64,000 bases of DNA, taken from contig CP014214.1 of assembly GCA_001560915.1 (NCBI GenBank), positions 372,001 through 436,000 of the forward strand. The letters run 5' to 3'. Position numbers and translations under genes: made by a program. Below are positions 37,902 through 48,436 of the stretch, in pieces. The stretch's first letter is position 1. Each line of letters begins with the position of its first letter. This stretch comes from a methanogenic archaeon ISO4-H5 (lineage in GTDB: Archaea; Thermoplasmatota; Thermoplasmata; Methanomassiliicoccales; Methanomethylophilaceae). The notes below the pieces were generated by a model. The model was given only the letters and a program-made list of their open reading frames with translations. It was not told where the DNA came from and ran no database searches.

Positions 37902-38729
37902 TCAGGACGAACGTCTCTTCCTGGTGGATTCGGGAACCGGCCATCCGCGTTTCTGTACTTCGGCAATGGCATCCCTGTTGCCTTTGGCGGCAGCCTTCTC
38001 CAGGAGTTCGCGTGCCTTCTGCGGTTCGGAATCCTCGATCATGTTGGCATACCTTATCATGCTGCGGGAGTGGCCGCATTCTGCCGATTGTTTGAGGTAT
38101 TCGATGCCTTTGGCCTTATCGATGTATCCTTCTTCGTCCAGGTATATCTCCGCGAGACGGTAGATCGCACGGGGGCTGCCGGATTTCTCGAACCAGTAGA
38201 TGGCCTTGTCGACATTCTTGGGAGTTCCTCTTCCCCAGAGATAATACTCGCCAAGATTGGTCATTCCGCGGGGATATCCTCCTTCGGCGGATTTGGTATA
38301 CCACTCGAAGGCCTCGTCATAGTTCTTATGAACCCCGTTTCCGTAATCGAGCATGACTCCGATGTTGCATGCGGATCTCATGTTGCCAAGAAGTGCCGAT
38401 TTGATGTAGAGCTCCGCTGCCTTCTTCTTGTCCTTCTCGATGTTCAGACCGATGGCGTAGCAATACGCCAGATTCCTGCTACCGGTAGGACTGTCCTCAT
38501 CTGAAGCAATCCTGAAAAGCTCTATGCTGCTTTTCCTGTCCATTTCGGAGCCGTCCGCCAGGATCGCACCCATCAGGACCATCGATTCGATGCAGCCTTC
38601 GTCTATATTGATTCTCAGAAGATTCTTTGCCTCATCCAATTCACCCTTCTCGAAATGTTCGTAAGCCTCGGTCAGGCGTTTGCGGACCTCGGAGTCGGGA
38701 TGAAATGACTTGGAGGGATAATCCAACAT
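37902..38729 (-). CDS. Sel1-repeat (TPR-like) protein
   Basis: 275 aa, built of about six Sel1-like repeats of 35-37 residues with the pattern AxxxGxxxxKDxxxAxxxYxKAAxxG. Clear examples are LNIEKDKKKAAELYIKSALLG, YGNGVHKNYDEAFEWYTKSA and LDEEGYIDKAKGIEYLKQSA. There is no signal peptide. Such proteins are scaffolds for protein-protein contacts; no partner is evident. The ATG at 38729 is chosen over 38750 because TTGGAGGCAGAT places a strong ribosome-binding site directly before it. It ends in a basic tail (STRKRRSS). Weak linkage to rnhA upstream (41 bp). Confidence 0.82.
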   Translation of the reverse strand: MLDYPSKSFHPDSEVRKRLTEAYEHFEKGELDEAKNLLRINIDEGCIESMVLMGAILADGSEMDRKSSIELFRIASDEDSPTGSRNLAYCYAIGLNIEKDKKKAAELYIKSALLGNMRSACNIGVMLDYGNGVHKNYDEAFEWYTKSAEGGYPRGMTNLGEYYLWGRGTPKNVDKAIYWFEKSGSPRAIYRLAEIYLDEEGYIDKAKGIEYLKQSAECGHSRSMIRYANMIEDSEPQKARELLEKAAAKGNRDAIAEVQKRGWPVPESTRKRRSS

Positions 38730-38769
38730 ATCTGCCTCCAAGTAGAACATATACTAAAAGGATTCTACC

Positions 38770-43107: not shown

Positions 43108-44184
43108 ATGCCAAACGCAACGGTCGGCGAGTATATGGTTCGCGACGTCCAGTACGTCGCACCCAATATGACAGTGCAGGAAGTCATTGACAAACTCCTG
43201 GCGTCCAACTTCCACGGTTTCCCTGTGGTCGAGAACGGATACCTTCTGGGATATGTCACAGCCAAGGAGCTCCTGCGTTTCACCGACCTGCCCAAGGCAA
43301 AGCTACGTTCGGTCATGAGCCGCGGTACCCTCTGCGCCATCCCTTCGATGTCGATCGACGACGCTACCCGTATCCTTTTCAGATACGGTCTCCGCAATCT
43401 GCCTGTGGTGGATGAGAACAAGAAGCTCGTAGGTATCATCTCGAACATCGACGTAGTACGTTCGCAGATCGAGAAGTCCCGTCCCGGGAAGGTCATGAAC
43501 GTCAAGAGCTTCATGGAGAAGCAGAACAACGTTACGTTCCGTATCCACAACGGCGAGGTCCCCATCGCAGAGATGATCCCCACTCAGAAAGAGGTCTACA
43601 TGGACGAGCTCGTCGGCAGGCAGTATGAGATCAAGAGGGGACTCAACGAACCCATCATCGTCATCCGGAGACACAAGGGTTTCCTGGTGGTCGACGGACA
43701 CCACCGTATCATGGCCGCGCACCGTCTGGGTCTTACCAATTTCAACTGCATCATCCTCGAGCCCAACGACATGGATGTGAAGCTCGGACTGGAGGTCACC
43801 GCGGAGAGGTGGGGCCTGCACACCCTTGACGACGTGAAGATCATCGAGGGTTCCAAGCATCCGTTTATGGAGATTACCACCATGCTCCTGCCGCAGGAAA
43901 TCGCCGGCAACATCAACAACGTGCTGATGGAGCGCATGGAGGAGAATCCCGGCCCCGGTGTGCCAAGCCCCATGGGTCCGACCCCCAGAGTTGACAGGCC
44001 TTCCTCTTCAAAGACCAAGAAGAGTTCCAAGAAAGCCGGTACTAAAAAAGAGACAGCGAAGAAACCTGCCACGAAGAAGGCTCCTGCAAAGAAGACTGCG
44101 GCAAAGAAAGCTCCTGCCAAAAAGGAACCTGCTTCCAAGAAGCCCGCATCTAAGAAGGCTGTAACACCGAAAAGTAAGGTGTGA
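43108..44184 (+). CDS. CBS-domain and ParB-like protein with histone H1-like tail
   Basis: 358 aa fusion of three parts. Residues about 1-125 are a CBS-domain pair (VGEYMVRDVQYV then VMSRGTLCAIP), which binds adenine nucleotides. Residues about 150-245 are a ParB/Srx-like domain with the phosphate-binding box VVDGHHRIMAAHRLG. Residues about 288-358 are a Lys/Ala/Pro-rich tail of AKK-type repeats (KKAPAKKTAAKKAPAKK) resembling bacterial and eukaryotic H1 tails, which suggests DNA or RNA binding. Possibly a nucleotide-sensing DNA-binding regulator; the combination is not one I can name. ATG at 43108, leaderless by promoter spacing (ACTAATATG upstream). Divergent from the second uptake operon. 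Confidence 0.78.
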   Translation: MPNATVGEYMVRDVQYVAPNMTVQEVIDKLLASNFHGFPVVENGYLLGYVTAKELLRFTDLPKAKLRSVMSRGTLCAIPSMSIDDATRILFRYGLRNLPVVDENKKLVGIISNIDVVRSQIEKSRPGKVMNVKSFMEKQNNVTFRIHNGEVPIAEMIPTQKEVYMDELVGRQYEIKRGLNEPIIVIRRHKGFLVVDGHHRIMAAHRLGLTNFNCIILEPNDMDVKLGLEVTAERWGLHTLDDVKIIEGSKHPFMEITTMLLPQEIAGNINNVLMERMEENPGPGVPSPMGPTPRVDRPSSSKTKKSSKKAGTKKETAKKPATKKAPAKKTAAKKAPAKKEPASKKPASKKAVTPKSKV

Positions 44185-44234
44185 CTAGCACATCGTTCCT
44201 CTTCTATTCCTTGAGTGAAAACATTACAAAAATT

Positions 44235-44283
44235 ACATTTCCCCGAAAACAAAACAGCACAAAAACTACATTTCCCCGAAAAC
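44235..44283. repeat. 33-bp tandem repeats, left block (2 copies)
   Basis: ACATTTCCCCGAAAAC occurs at 44235-44250 and 44268-44283, with similar A-rich sequence between (AAAACAGCACAAAAACT), so the period is 33 bp. The same unit recurs three times at 45960-46041 on the other side of the DUF4143 ATPase gene. Confidence 0.85.
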
Positions 44284-44313
44284 TTTTCAGGGCTGTAGAA
44301 ATGAAAAAGGGTG

Positions 44314-44340
44314 CCTGCGGGGGGCGTTTTTCCCCGCAGG
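44314..44340 (-). terminator. Duplicate copy of the ppsA terminator hairpin
   Basis: CCTGCGGGG / CCCCGCAGG with a 9-nt loop, the same stem as at 46073-46099 next to intact ppsA. It precedes the ppsA 3' remnant here. Confidence 0.6.
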
Positions 44341-44355
44341 TTTTAGTTTAAAGTT

Positions 44356-44493
44356 TCACTGTCCCAGAAGGGTCTTGCGGGCTGCCTTCAGGAGGATCTT
44401 CTGCTCGGCGGATGCGATGCCTTCTCAGTCATGATGAAGGTGTCGGGGTAGAGGGAGATTACGTCGATTCACTGTTCCACCAGGAACTTGCAG
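44356..44493 (-). pseudogene. Decayed duplicate of the ppsA 3' end
   Basis: Minus-strand match to the last 40-50 codons of ppsA (46115 to about 46251), including the stop region and QKILLKAA...TLL-type coding, but with base changes, small deletions and stop codons. For example, GGTATCGGGG TTGAGGG of the intact copy reads GGTGTCGGGGTAGAGGG here. The match ends abruptly near 44493. It is continuous with the duplicated terminator and 33-bp repeats to its left, so the whole 44235-44493 block is a copy of about 45993-46251. Confidence 0.8.
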
Positions 44494-44532
44494 CCAAAAA
44501 GCTTTCACGAAAAGGTTCCTGGTAGAGAAGGA

Positions 44533-44559
44533 CCTTCTAAGAAGACAGCCAAGGCCTAA
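44533..44559 (+). pseudogene. Possible remnant of an H1-like C-terminal tail
   Basis: Plus-strand reading gives PSKKTAKA and a stop, the composition of the CBS-ParB protein's tail. No longer gene precedes it. This would fit a duplication or replacement of the CBS-ParB 3' end during the rearrangement that brought in the DUF4143 ATPase gene. It is short, so chance is possible. Confidence 0.35.
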
Positions 44560-44561
44560 TC

Positions 44562-45929
44562 TTAAGCGGATTTTCGATTTGACAGGCTGTTCGCCAGGAA
44601 CCCTACCATGTATATCGGGAGATAGGTGATTTTTCCTTCTTTTTTGACATCCTTCCCATGGACGATATATGCTTTGGTAATTCTTCCTTTGTTTCTTTCG
44701 AGGAGCGAATCCAAGGAAGTATGTCTCGACGAATCGCCGGATTTTACTTCAATCGGTACTGGTTTTTTCCCGCCCACGATGAAATCTACTTCATAGACGT
44801 GTTTCTCGTCACGAGCGAATTTAGTAAATCTCAGTTCGATTCCTCTGCATTTCAGTTCTTGAGATACCGCGTTTTCGAAAATCATTCCTTCATTGAGGTT
44901 TAACTTATTTTTTACAAAAGCGGCCTGTACCTCGTCGCTATTGAGGATATTGCTGCCGAACGATTGAGTAAGTAACAGGCCAGTATCCAGCATGTAACAT
45001 TTCAGCGATTTTTCCTCTATGGTTAGATTAATCGCTGATTGCGGTTCATTTATCTCCCAGCATAAATTACAAATGTGAGCATCATCGAGCCAGAGTAAAC
45101 TGTTTTCATAGTTGCTGGTCCTGCTTCCTTTCTTTATGATTCCCGGGCGGAAACGTTTTTCATGTTTGCTCAGCAACGCTGGAACAGAATCGAATATTCT
45201 CTTAGCAACATCTCCATTCTTTACAGGTATCTTGGAAAGATCCTCATGGTACAACTGCAGAATACCTTTTTTCACTCTTTCACAGTCTGAATACCTTTGT
45301 GATTCTATGAATTTGGATACGGACTGTGGGAATCCACCTATCATCATATATGTTTTGAACAGTTCCATCAATTCACGGTGCATAACTCCCATCTGTTTCC
45401 CCTGTTCAAAGCAGTTCTTTGCATAATCATATTTTGATGAGGCACCTACAGCCCAACAGAATTCTTCGAAAGACATGGGGTACATATCAATGCGATATTC
45501 TTCGGAGGGAATCATGATTTTTGCGGCATTGCTCAATACAGTAATCAAAGAACCCGTCTCGATATAGCAATACCTGCCATCTTCAACAAGGCCTTTGATC
45601 ATTTCTCTGGCACGCGGAAATAGCTGTATCTCATCAAATACGATCACGCTTTCACCAAGGTACAGCTCTACGGAATACAATGCTTGAAGTTCTGTGAAAA
45701 GGCGATCATATTCGTTTCCGTACCTGTTGAATAATTCTATGGTACCTGGCTTGGGTTTATAGAAATCGATTATGAGCGCAGATTTGAATTCCTTTTCAGA
45801 GAACTCTTTTACAACCGTGCTTTTTCCGACTCTTCTCGCGCCTTCTACCAGCAGAGCATAGTCCTTACTCCAATGGTTTTTCCACTCAAGTAACTCACTG
45901 TAAACGGTACGCTCGAACAGTTTAGGCAT
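44562..45929 (-). CDS. AAA-type ATPase, DUF4143 family
   Basis: 455 aa, of the archaeal/bacterial ATPase-DUF4143 family, often called a predicted AAA+ superfamily ATPase and without a firm function. Walker A is VEGARRVGKST (about residue 30), Walker B is VIVFDEIQLFP, and the DUF4143 domain with a PD-(D/E)xK-like core is near the end (YEVDFIVGGKKPVPIEVKSG). The ATG at 45929 (MPKLFERTVY) is chosen; in-frame codons upstream run through the repeat region. It is visibly more AT-rich than ppsA and lies exactly between two blocks of 33-bp repeats and duplicated ppsA ends, so it looks like a later arrival. Walker motifs are intact, unlike the protein at 15337. Confidence 0.85.
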   Translation of the reverse strand: MPKLFERTVYSELLEWKNHWSKDYALLVEGARRVGKSTVVKEFSEKEFKSALIIDFYKPKPGTIELFNRYGNEYDRLFTELQALYSVELYLGESVIVFDEIQLFPRAREMIKGLVEDGRYCYIETGSLITVLSNAAKIMIPSEEYRIDMYPMSFEEFCWAVGASSKYDYAKNCFEQGKQMGVMHRELMELFKTYMMIGGFPQSVSKFIESQRYSDCERVKKGILQLYHEDLSKIPVKNGDVAKRIFDSVPALLSKHEKRFRPGIIKKGSRTSNYENSLLWLDDAHICNLCWEINEPQSAINLTIEEKSLKCYMLDTGLLLTQSFGSNILNSDEVQAAFVKNKLNLNEGMIFENAVSQELKCRGIELRFTKFARDEKHVYEVDFIVGGKKPVPIEVKSGDSSRHTSLDSLLERNKGRITKAYIVHGKDVKKEGKITYLPIYMVGFLANSLSNRKSA

Positions 45930-45959
45930 CGCATTCGCATCGTTTTTGTGTTTATTAAT

Positions 45960-46041
45960 ACATTTCCCCGAAATCAAAATGGTGCAAAAACTACATTTCC
46001 CCGAAAATAAAACAGCATAAAAACTACATTTCCCCGAAAAC
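45960..46041. repeat. 33-bp tandem repeats, right block (3 copies)
   Basis: ACATTTCCCCGAAA(A/T) begins at 45960, 45993 and 46026, exactly 33 bp apart. The block lies immediately upstream of the DUF4143 ATPase start (45929), in its promoter region, and just past the ppsA terminator. Units are nearly identical, spacers included, so this is not a CRISPR array. Confidence 0.85.
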
Positions 46042-46072
46042 TTTTCAGGGTTATAAAAGTGAAAAAGGGTTG

Positions 46073-46099
46073 CCTGCGGGGGGCGTTTTTCCCCGCAGG
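46073..46099 (-). terminator. ppsA terminator
   Basis: CCTGCGGGG / CCCCGCAGG perfect 9-bp stem with a 9-nt loop, 16 bp after the ppsA stop on the minus strand; CCCTTTTTC follows. Confidence 0.7.
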
Positions 46100-46114
46100 T
46101 TTTAGTTTAAAGTT

Positions 46115-48436
46115 TCACTGTTCCAGAAGGGTCTTGCGGGCAGCCTTCAGGAGGATCTTCTGCTCGGCGGAGGCGATGACCTTCTTGGTCTTGATGAAGG
46201 TATCGGGGTTGAGGGAGATCGCATCGATTCCCTGCTCCACCAGGAACTCGCAGAACTCGGGGTAGACCGAGGGTGCCTGTCCGCAGATGCTGACCTTGTT
46301 GCCGTTCTCGTGGGCCACCTTGATGAGGTGGGCGATGGCGGCCTTGACACCGGGGTTCCTCTCGTCGAAGTATCCCATCTTTCCGAGGATATCGGAGTCC
46401 CTGTCGCAGCCCATGGTGAGCTGGGTCAGGTCGTTGGATCCGATGGAGAACCAGTCGCAGTACTTGCAGAACTCCTCTGCCATGAAGATGTTGACGGGGA
46501 CCTCTGCCATGAAGTAGAGCTTGAGGTCGAGTCCGCGCCTGAGTCCGATGGATTCCATCATGGCGGTGATCTGCTTGACCTCGTCGATGGTCCTGACGAA
46601 GGGCAGCATGATGTTGACGTTCTTGAGACCCATGTCGTCCCTGACCTTCTTGATGGCCTTGAGCTCGCACATGAATGCCTCGCGGTAGTTCTCGGAGATG
46701 TATCTGGAACATCCCCTCCATCCGATCATGGGGTTGTCCTCGGTGGGCTCGTAGTTGGCTCCGCCCTTCATGTCGTGGTACTCGTTGGTCTTGAAGTCGG
46801 AGGTCCTGAGGGTGACGGGCCTGGGGTAGAATGCCCTGGCGACCTTGGCGACACCGTCGGCGAGCTTGTCGATGAGCTCCTGGGCCCTTCCGTCGGCGAT
46901 GACCGCGCAGGGGTGCTCTCCGATGTAGTTGGTGAACAGGAACTCGGACCTGAGGAGTCCGACTCCGTCGCAGGGGAGCTGTGCGATCTCTTCGGCCTTG
47001 GTGGGCATGGAGACGTTGCACATGACCTTGGTTCCGGTGACGGGGCAGGGCTCGGCAAACACGGTGGCTGCCTTTGCCTCGGGTTCCTCCTTGGCCTTCT
47101 TCTTGATCTCTCCGCGGTAGACGGTTCCGGTGGATCCGTCGACGGTGATGATCTCTCCGTCCTTCAGGTCGGAGGTAGCGGTGGCGGTTCCGACGACGCA
47201 GGGGGTTCCGAGCTCCCTGGAGATGATTGCTGCGTGGCAGGTCATTCCTCCCTCGTCGGTGACGATGGCGACGGACCTGCTCATGGCGGGGACCATGTCG
47301 GGCATGGTCATCTTGGTGACCAGGACATCTCCGTCCTTGATGACATCGAGGGACATTCCGTCCTCGTAGATGCAGACCTTACCGGTTGCCATGCCGGGGC
47401 TGGCTCCGAGCCCGGTGAGGAGGACCTCTCCGCCCTCGACTGCCTCGGAGGGGGTGGTGTCTGCGGAACCGATGGCGGTGATGGGCCTGGCCTGGACGAG
47501 GTAGACCTTGCCGTCCTCGATGCACCACTCCATATCCATGGGTTTGTCGTAGTGGATCTCGACCTGCCTTCCGATCTCTGCGATTTCGAGGACGCGGGAG
47601 TCGGGGATCTTCTGGATGGACTGCATGTCCTCGGGAACATCCTCTTTTACTGCTCCGCCCTGGGGTCCGCGGATGTACTTCCAGGTCTGTTTGAAGGTCT
47701 TCTTGCTGCTGATGGCCATCTTGGCCTTGTCGATGACGTAGTGGTCGGGAGTGACCTCTCCGCCGACCATCGCCTCGCCGAGTCCGTAACCGCCCTCGAC
47801 GATGATGTTCTTGGCTCCGTTGTGGGGGTCCACGGTGAACATGATTCCGGAGTACTCGGAGTTGACCATCTTCTGGACGACGACCGCGAGCTTGACATCC
47901 TCGTGGGAGTAGCCCTGGGCTTCCCTGTAGTAGATGGCCCTGGCGGTGAAGAGGGAGGACCAGCATTTCTTGATCTTGTCTACCAGGTCCTTCTCGTCCT
48001 TGACGTTGAGGTAGGTCTCCTGCTGTCCGGCGAAGGATGCATCAGGGAGATCCTCTGCGGTGGCGGAGGACCTTACTGCGACGAATCCCTTCTTTCCTCC
48101 GAGGAGGAGCTTGTAACTGTCCTTGATCTCCTTCTGGAGGTCCTTGGGGATGGGGCATTTGTCAAAGAGTGCCCTGATCTCTTTGGCGGCCGCATCGAGG
48201 CTGTCGTCGGAGGAGCGGTCGATGCCCTTGAGGAGGGCGAGGATCTTGTCCATGATTCCGCTCGAGGCGATGAAGTAGTCGTAAGAAACGGTGGTGAGAA
48301 CGAAAGCGTTGGGGACGGGGAATCCGGAGGAGGTGAGTTCTCCGAGGTTCGCTCCTTTGCCTCCGACGATAGGGACGTCGGTGACGCGGAGTTCGTTCAC
48401 ATCGATGATTCTTCTCGTGTCTTTGATATCGGCCAT
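46115..48436 (-). CDS. ppsA: Phosphoenolpyruvate synthase
   Basis: 773 aa, usual length, converts pyruvate and ATP to phosphoenolpyruvate, AMP and phosphate, the first step of gluconeogenesis in methanogens. The N-terminal ATP-grasp domain shows VGGKGANLGELTSSGFPVPNAFVLTT. The phosphohistidine domain has DEGGMTCHAAIISRELGTPCVVG with the catalytic His around residue 405. The C-terminal PEP/pyruvate barrel has GVGLLRSEFLF and CGQAPSVYPEFCEFLVEQGIDAISLNPD. It is monocistronic, with a minus-strand TATA box (CTTTATATGG, about 48512-48521) about 75 bp before the ATG. The pathway link to porCDAB downstream (pyruvate supply) is logical, but the two are separate units. Confidence 0.95.
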   Translation of the reverse strand: MADIKDTRRIIDVNELRVTDVPIVGGKGANLGELTSSGFPVPNAFVLTTVSYDYFIASSGIMDKILALLKGIDRSSDDSLDAAAKEIRALFDKCPIPKDLQKEIKDSYKLLLGGKKGFVAVRSSATAEDLPDASFAGQQETYLNVKDEKDLVDKIKKCWSSLFTARAIYYREAQGYSHEDVKLAVVVQKMVNSEYSGIMFTVDPHNGAKNIIVEGGYGLGEAMVGGEVTPDHYVIDKAKMAISSKKTFKQTWKYIRGPQGGAVKEDVPEDMQSIQKIPDSRVLEIAEIGRQVEIHYDKPMDMEWCIEDGKVYLVQARPITAIGSADTTPSEAVEGGEVLLTGLGASPGMATGKVCIYEDGMSLDVIKDGDVLVTKMTMPDMVPAMSRSVAIVTDEGGMTCHAAIISRELGTPCVVGTATATSDLKDGEIITVDGSTGTVYRGEIKKKAKEEPEAKAATVFAEPCPVTGTKVMCNVSMPTKAEEIAQLPCDGVGLLRSEFLFTNYIGEHPCAVIADGRAQELIDKLADGVAKVARAFYPRPVTLRTSDFKTNEYHDMKGGANYEPTEDNPMIGWRGCSRYISENYREAFMCELKAIKKVRDDMGLKNVNIMLPFVRTIDEVKQITAMMESIGLRRGLDLKLYFMAEVPVNIFMAEEFCKYCDWFSIGSNDLTQLTMGCDRDSDILGKMGYFDERNPGVKAAIAHLIKVAHENGNKVSICGQAPSVYPEFCEFLVEQGIDAISLNPDTFIKTKKVIASAEQKILLKAARKTLLEQ

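Follow-up and report, generated by a model that had tools for sequence, protein, structure and literature searches.

Introduction

Within the 64,000-nucleotide stretch of the genome of the methanogenic archaeon ISO4-H5 (Methanomassiliicoccales) analysed here (contig CP014214.1, positions 372,001 to 436,000; hereafter the window), one gene raises the question of what a single chain made of a CBS pair, a ParB-like domain and a lysine-rich tail may be for. An earlier sequence-only reading had suggested that such a protein could link the energy state to nucleoid structure or to partition. The fusion type itself is already published: according to PMC12704722, the joining of CBS domains to the ParB-CTPase fold is the most frequent archaeal fusion of that fold, found mainly in Methanobacteriota and Haloarchaea. 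The same report describes members of the fold as binding CTP, ATP or GTP in vitro, with 17 of 28 purified members binding no nucleotide and with a specificity that is not predictable from sequence; hence, nucleotide binding by the protein studied here cannot be assumed.

In this work we propose that the product of this gene, which is conserved among archaea, is probably a sensor of adenine nucleotides whose ParB-like fold takes up a second nucleotide. Within the literature searched, what is added here is the order-wide conservation of this protein with a fixed pocket of mixed SerK/ParB type, the restriction of its basic tail to one genus, and its synteny with ppsA, interrupted in the window by an ATPase insertion.

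Results

Domain architecture

The gene and its parts are listed below, with the source of each assignment in brackets.

43108..44184, + strand: whole gene, 358 residues, with CBS pair, linker helix, ParB/SerK-like domain and basic tail (ORF list, Pfam, predicted structure)
43123..43281, + strand: CBS domain 1, residues 6-58 (Pfam, predicted structure)
43297..43470, + strand: CBS domain 2, about residues 64-121, with the invariant G109, S112 and D115 (predicted structure, alignment)
43444..43527, + strand: long linker helix, residues 113-140 (predicted model)
43537..43845, + strand: ParB/SerK/sulfiredoxin-like nucleotide-binding fold, about residues 144-246 (predicted structure, structure and profile searches)
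43579..43587, + strand: P158-T159-Q160, with a ParB-type glutamine at the place of SerK Glu30 (sequence alignment)
43693..43707, + strand: D196-G-H-H-R200, phosphate-binding motif, in 152 of 152 sequences (motif count)
43990..44181, + strand: lysine/alanine/proline tail, residues 295-358, of low confidence in the model and, as a basic tail, limited to the genus (composition, predicted model, orthologue comparison)

The CBS pair described in the sequence-only reading is clearly present, as two CBS stretches in the product of the 358-residue open reading frame (Pfam, 7e-26), and it resembles solved CBS proteins with Z up to 19.5 (CBSX2 with AMP). In the predicted whole-chain structure this pair is followed by the helix, the ParB-like fold, some short helices and the low-confidence tail. 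The matches listed in the whole-chain fold searches (50 each) were all CBS domains and uninformative on the ParB-like part, which was predicted alone. In CBS domain 2, G109, S112 and D115 are invariant in all 127 orthologues from the order, a pattern which we take to be of the kind that marks nucleotide binding, holding the ribose of adenosine ligands. Given that meaning of the pattern, the adenine-nucleotide sensing previously ascribed to the CBS pair is plausible from these residues.

The ParB-like domain is faint at the level of sequence: the Pfam matches are weak (ParBc_2, 0.098; ParB_N, 0.13; both below their cut-offs), as is the NCBIfam SerK match of the whole protein (residues 179-227, 3.7e-6). 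When predicted alone, the domain reached a mean pLDDT of 85.6, and Foldseek matched the model to ParB, Noc, sulfiredoxin, SerK and SbnI (best 4.8e-5, SerK from 1.8e-3). In VIA-align most fold relatives scored between Z 7 and 10 (SerK entries, 8.3 to 9.0), with two ParB entries lower (4.7 and 3.0) and an uncharacterised Agrobacterium protein, 2hwj, in the top row (10.6). The ParB-like assignment is thus better backed by the predicted structure than by sequence, and the earlier claim of a phosphate-binding ParB-like domain is supported by this predicted fold as well as by GHHR, an invariant motif of the GxxR type. A CBS pair and a ParB-CTPase fold are therefore found in one chain, which is the composition of a CBS-ParB-fold fusion.

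Distribution of the CBS-ParB body

The body (the protein apart from its tail) was matched in 131 of 147 Methanomassiliicoccales genomes, including 72 of the 74 of good quality; extra matches in some genomes of the order correspond to the CBS part alone or to fragments. The 127 orthologues mentioned above were extracted from this set, with G002, G013, G017 and G093 excluded as partial (the G017 match covered the CBS part alone), and 25 sequences from outside the order bring the collection to 152; L304, whose match has no CBS part, was left out of it and of the 31-row alignment used below. A search for the domain combination in other archaea, which the sequence-only reading had put forward as a check, was productive, with the body found in Altiarchaea, in other Thermoplasmatota and on a plasmid of the haloarchaeon Halobellus. 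At E <= 1e-8, the ParB-like part occurs in 99 of 389 genomes drawn from the phylum, eight of them matching weakly (9e-12 to 4e-9). Judging from these comparisons, the CBS-ParB body is old, widespread and conserved.

The Halobellus limi plasmid relative (L305:5614-6414) lies between genes for formate dehydrogenase alpha, from which one small gene separates it, and aldehyde ferredoxin oxidoreductase, with a formate-THF ligase gene nearby.

A pocket of mixed SerK and ParB character

Both SerK and ParB are close to the domain in profile comparisons. Among solved relatives, the profile search ranks SerK first (E 1.4e-4), with ParB close behind (5.1e-4); among named families, SerK is the best for the domain from the window (8.6e-07, versus 8.2e-04 for parB_part), and over 52 members the two are level, each matching 51 (best 5.1e-08 and 7.4e-08, respectively). 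The DGHHR motif is present in 152/152 sequences, as is P-(T/S)-Q (T in 141). In the 31-row alignment, which spans Methanomassiliicoccales, Altiarchaea, other Thermoplasmatota and Halobellus, the invariant positions are P158, T159, Q160, D166, E167, G170, R171, E174, E181, D196-R200, G227 and D242; E229 is found in all rows but one (30 of 31). Clustered and charged as they are, these residues look like a binding or active site.

The pocket combines the phosphate motif of SerK (DGHHR) with the Box I glutamine of ParB at the place of SerK Glu30: in a sequence alignment, as opposed to superposed structures, Glu30 aligns with Q160 and Q160 with the glutamine of ParB Box I. Two of the canonical ParB motifs for nucleotide binding can be recognised, P-x-Q of Box I and GxxR of Box II; Box III can be placed only to within one or two residues. 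In SerK, Glu30 is catalytic. It is the residue changed in the solved SerK mutants E30Q and E30A (PDB titles).

A lysine-rich tail restricted to the genus

The histone H1-like Lys/Ala/Pro tail noted earlier is borne out: residues 295-358 hold 23 Lys in 64 residues, whereas Lys makes up 5.4% of the body (P 1.4e-13 in a binomial test with the body frequency, for a stretch picked for its composition), and close relatives have the same tail, with changes. It is the only site in the window with at least 15 Lys per 60 residues (six frames, stop-free stretches of at least 60 residues). The composition is that of bacterial HC2/H1 tails, but here it forms an appendix to a folded protein, and the Pfam HC2 match (3.5e-4, 21.2 bits) falls short of the gathering cut-off of 40.

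Twelve of the 14 genomes of the genus gave an orthologue (G042 and G046, of low completeness, had no match), with extensions beyond residue 283 of 15 to 96 residues. The net charge of the extension is +11 or more in eight of the twelve; of the other four, three are short (15-29 residues; G034, +5; G039, +2; G043, +3) and one is acidic (G041, 37 residues, -5), which indicates that the tail is dispensable. Outside the genus, none of the 115 orthologues from the order reaches +11 (highest, +6) or has at least 8 Lys, and in none of the 25 relatives from outside the order does the region near the end exceed 4 Lys per 20 residues. The basic tail is thus limited to Methanomethylophilus, the genus of the window, and cannot belong to the core function, since its charge is lacking in 115/115 orthologues beyond the genus. 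As evidence against its own proposal, the sequence-only reading had named a tail absent in orthologues together with a known, unrelated function of the domain pair: the absence is what we see outside the genus, and no known unrelated function was found in the literature searched.

A basic tail as a hallmark of the whole family was also considered and is ruled out, with 0/115 at +11 outside the genus.

The tail changes much faster than the core. When the window is compared with its closest relative, residues 1-290 show dN 0.004 and dS 0.391, versus a tail dN of 0.170; over three comparisons with the window, tail dN values of 0.170, 0.371 and 0.493 stand against core values of 0.004, 0.062 and 0.095 (tail dS is saturated in these comparisons, hence no dN/dS ratio is given). 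A charge that is mostly kept while the sequence changes quickly would suit a disordered polycation or nucleic-acid tether. In a tree of the core, G037, which already carries a basic tail (+12), lies apart from the other 11 and beside the outgroup rows, so that on a simple reading the tail would have been gained early in the genus and later shortened or lost; with good support for just 4 of the 16 inner branches and with midpoint rooting, the tree is compatible with repeated gain as well.

The DNA of the tail holds short imperfect repeats of 15, 18 and 30 bp. A search of the same genome with the tail gave one further such stretch (E 4.4), in a DUF2188 protein, and Lys-rich stretches may therefore be a compositional habit of the genus. 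In that protein (L232:1270-1842) the long Lys/Ala/Pro stretch precedes the DUF2188 domain, and tail-like stretches close to DUF2188 matches (about 400 bases or less) are also present in G034 and G043.

Locus organization

Downstream of the gene, the following features were identified (strand given where assigned).

44227..44493: left, broken copy of a duplication that comprises the ppsA 3' end and the repeats downstream of it (sequence comparison)
44494..44559, + strand: short open stretch ending in PSKKTAKA (reading frame, genus search)
44562..45977, - strand: AAA_14 and DUF4143 ATPase, between the gene and ppsA (ORF list, Pfam, PADLOC)
45985..46253: right copy of this duplication, which overlaps the intact ppsA at its 3' end (sequence comparison)
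46115..48436, - strand: ppsA, encoding phosphoenolpyruvate synthase, a neighbour in convergent orientation across the order (locus comparison)

The claim that the locus has been rearranged proved correct, on grounds other than the tail-like fragment it had been drawn from. The segments 44227-44493 and 45985-46253 are identical at 246 of 267 positions, and these copies of the ppsA end, with their 33-bp repeats, flank the 1.4-kb ATPase (PADLOC candidate PDC-S01, 8.8e-103). In the closest relative (G045, L148) 120 bp separate the gene from the ppsA match, which makes it probable that the ATPase arrived recently in the window. Its source was not found; among the other loci of the order, one (L092) has a relative with 41% identity close to the gene.

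A convergent downstream ppsA was found in 116 of the 127 orthologue loci, and in 88 the gap does not exceed 250 bp; in the remaining 11 no ppsA lies within the fetched DNA, which in one case reached 73 bp downstream. Outside the order a ppsA match was found in none of 26 loci, five of them Altiarchaeal, in flanks that reached some 6-8 kb per side at most and were shorter for several loci. Extra DNA at the convergent junction is seen in other loci of the order too, with gaps above 250 bp in 28/127.

The fragment at 44533-44559, which the earlier reading took for the same kind of tail, does not hold up as a second tail copy. It ends a 21-codon stretch (44494-44559) whose score against the tail DNA of the window was reached by 15 of 300 shuffles, and against seven other tails by 2 to 131 of 300, the two best (L033 and L036, 2/300 each) being discounted because eight tries were made. 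A search of the 14 genomes of the genus returned, besides the fragment itself, just matches of 15-26 bases (best E 0.005). The similarity is not clearly above chance, and a second copy of the tail near the ATPase is thus not borne out.

Elsewhere in the window, a Sel1-repeat protein is encoded at 37902-38750 (Pfam, 2.7e-36), upstream of transporter genes.

Discussion

The reading that we favour, at somewhat better than even confidence, is that of a CBS-gated enzyme or switch of the ParB-CTPase/SerK/sulfiredoxin fold, distinct from ParABS systems, to which the tail of Methanomethylophilus was added as a means of holding on to nucleic acid. In this mechanism, the CBS pair would read an adenine nucleotide (likely), and the signal would pass via the long linker helix to the pocket formed by P-(T/S)-Q and DGHHR, which would bind an NTP or NDP and probably hydrolyse it or transfer its phosphate, so that the body would act as a metabolic enzyme or switch. 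The strongly basic tail, presumably disordered in the cell, would most likely hold the protein on DNA or ribosomal RNA without sequence specificity, as an add-on outside the core activity in most Methanomethylophilus copies.

One of the nearest characterized relatives is SerK, the ADP-dependent free serine kinase (PMC5120207; PDB 5x0b and mutants), with the same fold and the same DGHHR motif, and the body might accordingly be read as a free L-serine kinase making O-phosphoserine under the control of the CBS pair. We consider this unlikely, in spite of SerK ranking first in both the profile and the named-family comparisons: the score for the domain is 28.3 of the required 380 bits (NCBIfam NF053625; 26.3 for the whole protein), the place of Glu30 is taken by a glutamine that belongs to a motif without exceptions in the family, and a CBS pair is added. 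The genomic context points in the same direction, given that SerA is present (561.8 bits) and no SepRS scores above the cut-off in the same genome (best, 59 of 381 bits), so that tRNA-dependent cysteine synthesis gives no evident reason to make phosphoserine from serine; a search of this genome found no other SerK-family match besides the protein itself. From these sequence data, a serine kinase role is not favoured. The conserved neighbour suggests another task for the body, namely regulation of PEP synthase, e.g. by nucleotide-dependent modification, in the place of the missing bacterial PSRP (PF03618; no match in the same genome at E 0.001, with positive controls in 3/14 genomes). Adenine nucleotide sensing would fit a control of PEP and pyruvate, and the ppsA synteny is extensive, but convergent genes share no promoter, synteny within one order may be inertia, and the neighbourhood is not seen in the loci from outside the order; we regard such a regulator as very improbable.

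The remaining alternatives concern the tail, and with it the nucleoid or partition role of the original proposal, in which a CTP-type clamp with a histone H1-like tail would be tuned by the energy state. Some features speak for it: the ParB-type glutamine and GxxR are kept, the tail has its (sub-threshold) HC2 likeness, and Methanomethylophilaceae are reported in PMC7613761 to have no known nucleoid-associated protein. The fold and the P-x-Q and GxxR motifs are indeed those of ParB/Spo0J and Noc (PDB 6sdk, 7bnk, 7nfu), but the HTH and the C-terminal dimer domain of ParB were not found here (Pfam, E up to 1; past the fold there are short helices and the tail alone), and the ParA-binding motif (L/F/I)G(K/R)G(L/F/I), as given in PMC12704722, occurs in 0/152 sequences. 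The link to partition is thus not supported and, as far as sequence and model can tell, disfavoured. No parA neighbour was recognised in the neighbour lists inspected by eye. As for the nucleoid, the basic tail is missing outside the genus and in 4/12 members within it, and the single candidate put forward in PMC7613761 is a 74-residue lysine-rich protein of M. alvus, with no further obvious ones described from the nucleoid enrichment of that study. That enrichment was done in M. luminyensis, and the M. alvus proteome was quantified; since the screen, as described there, was limited to proteins below 290 residues and the tailed genus does not include M. luminyensis, the protein studied here falls outside that test. 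In a family for which no known chromatin protein is reported, a nucleoid role for the tailed protein would be possible, and the combined nucleoid or partition proposal is, in our estimate, unlikely. No better placed is the more specific idea that in Methanomethylophilus an ancient CBS-gated nucleotide switch became, by gaining an H1-like tail, an energy-responsive nucleoid tether whose DNA binding and release would follow the adenylate state; to this we give a small likelihood. More credible than any of these, if still the lesser possibility, is that near-neutral drift of low-complexity sequence, through AAG/GCN slippage, has given a soluble enzyme a tail without function, as suggested by the short repeats in its DNA, the wide range of extension lengths within one genus and the similar stretch in the unrelated DUF2188 protein; what argues against it is the strongly positive charge kept in 8/12 members despite fast sequence change. 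Drift concerns the tail alone and can be combined with the CBS-gated body.

As the second Lys-rich protein of this genome has a DUF2188 domain, we also considered DUF2188 as the 74-residue chromatin candidate of PMC7613761, and dropped it: DUF2188 was found in 74 of the 147 genomes of the order, all in the family of the window, and the candidate is reported there to be present in M. luminyensis too.

The fusions described in PMC12704722 share both domains with the CBS-gated protein proposed here; we found there no description of a basic tail or of a function for a CBS fusion, and the word "histone" is absent from the main text of that report. This is the commonest archaeal fusion of the fold according to that source, and our literature search found no function in print for any CBS-ParB fusion. 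Being near-universal in its order and having a sharply conserved pocket, the protein is a good first target among them. Additionally, DNA binding by its tail, if shown, would make it part of the nucleoid in methanogens that are reported in PMC7613761 to have no known component of this kind.
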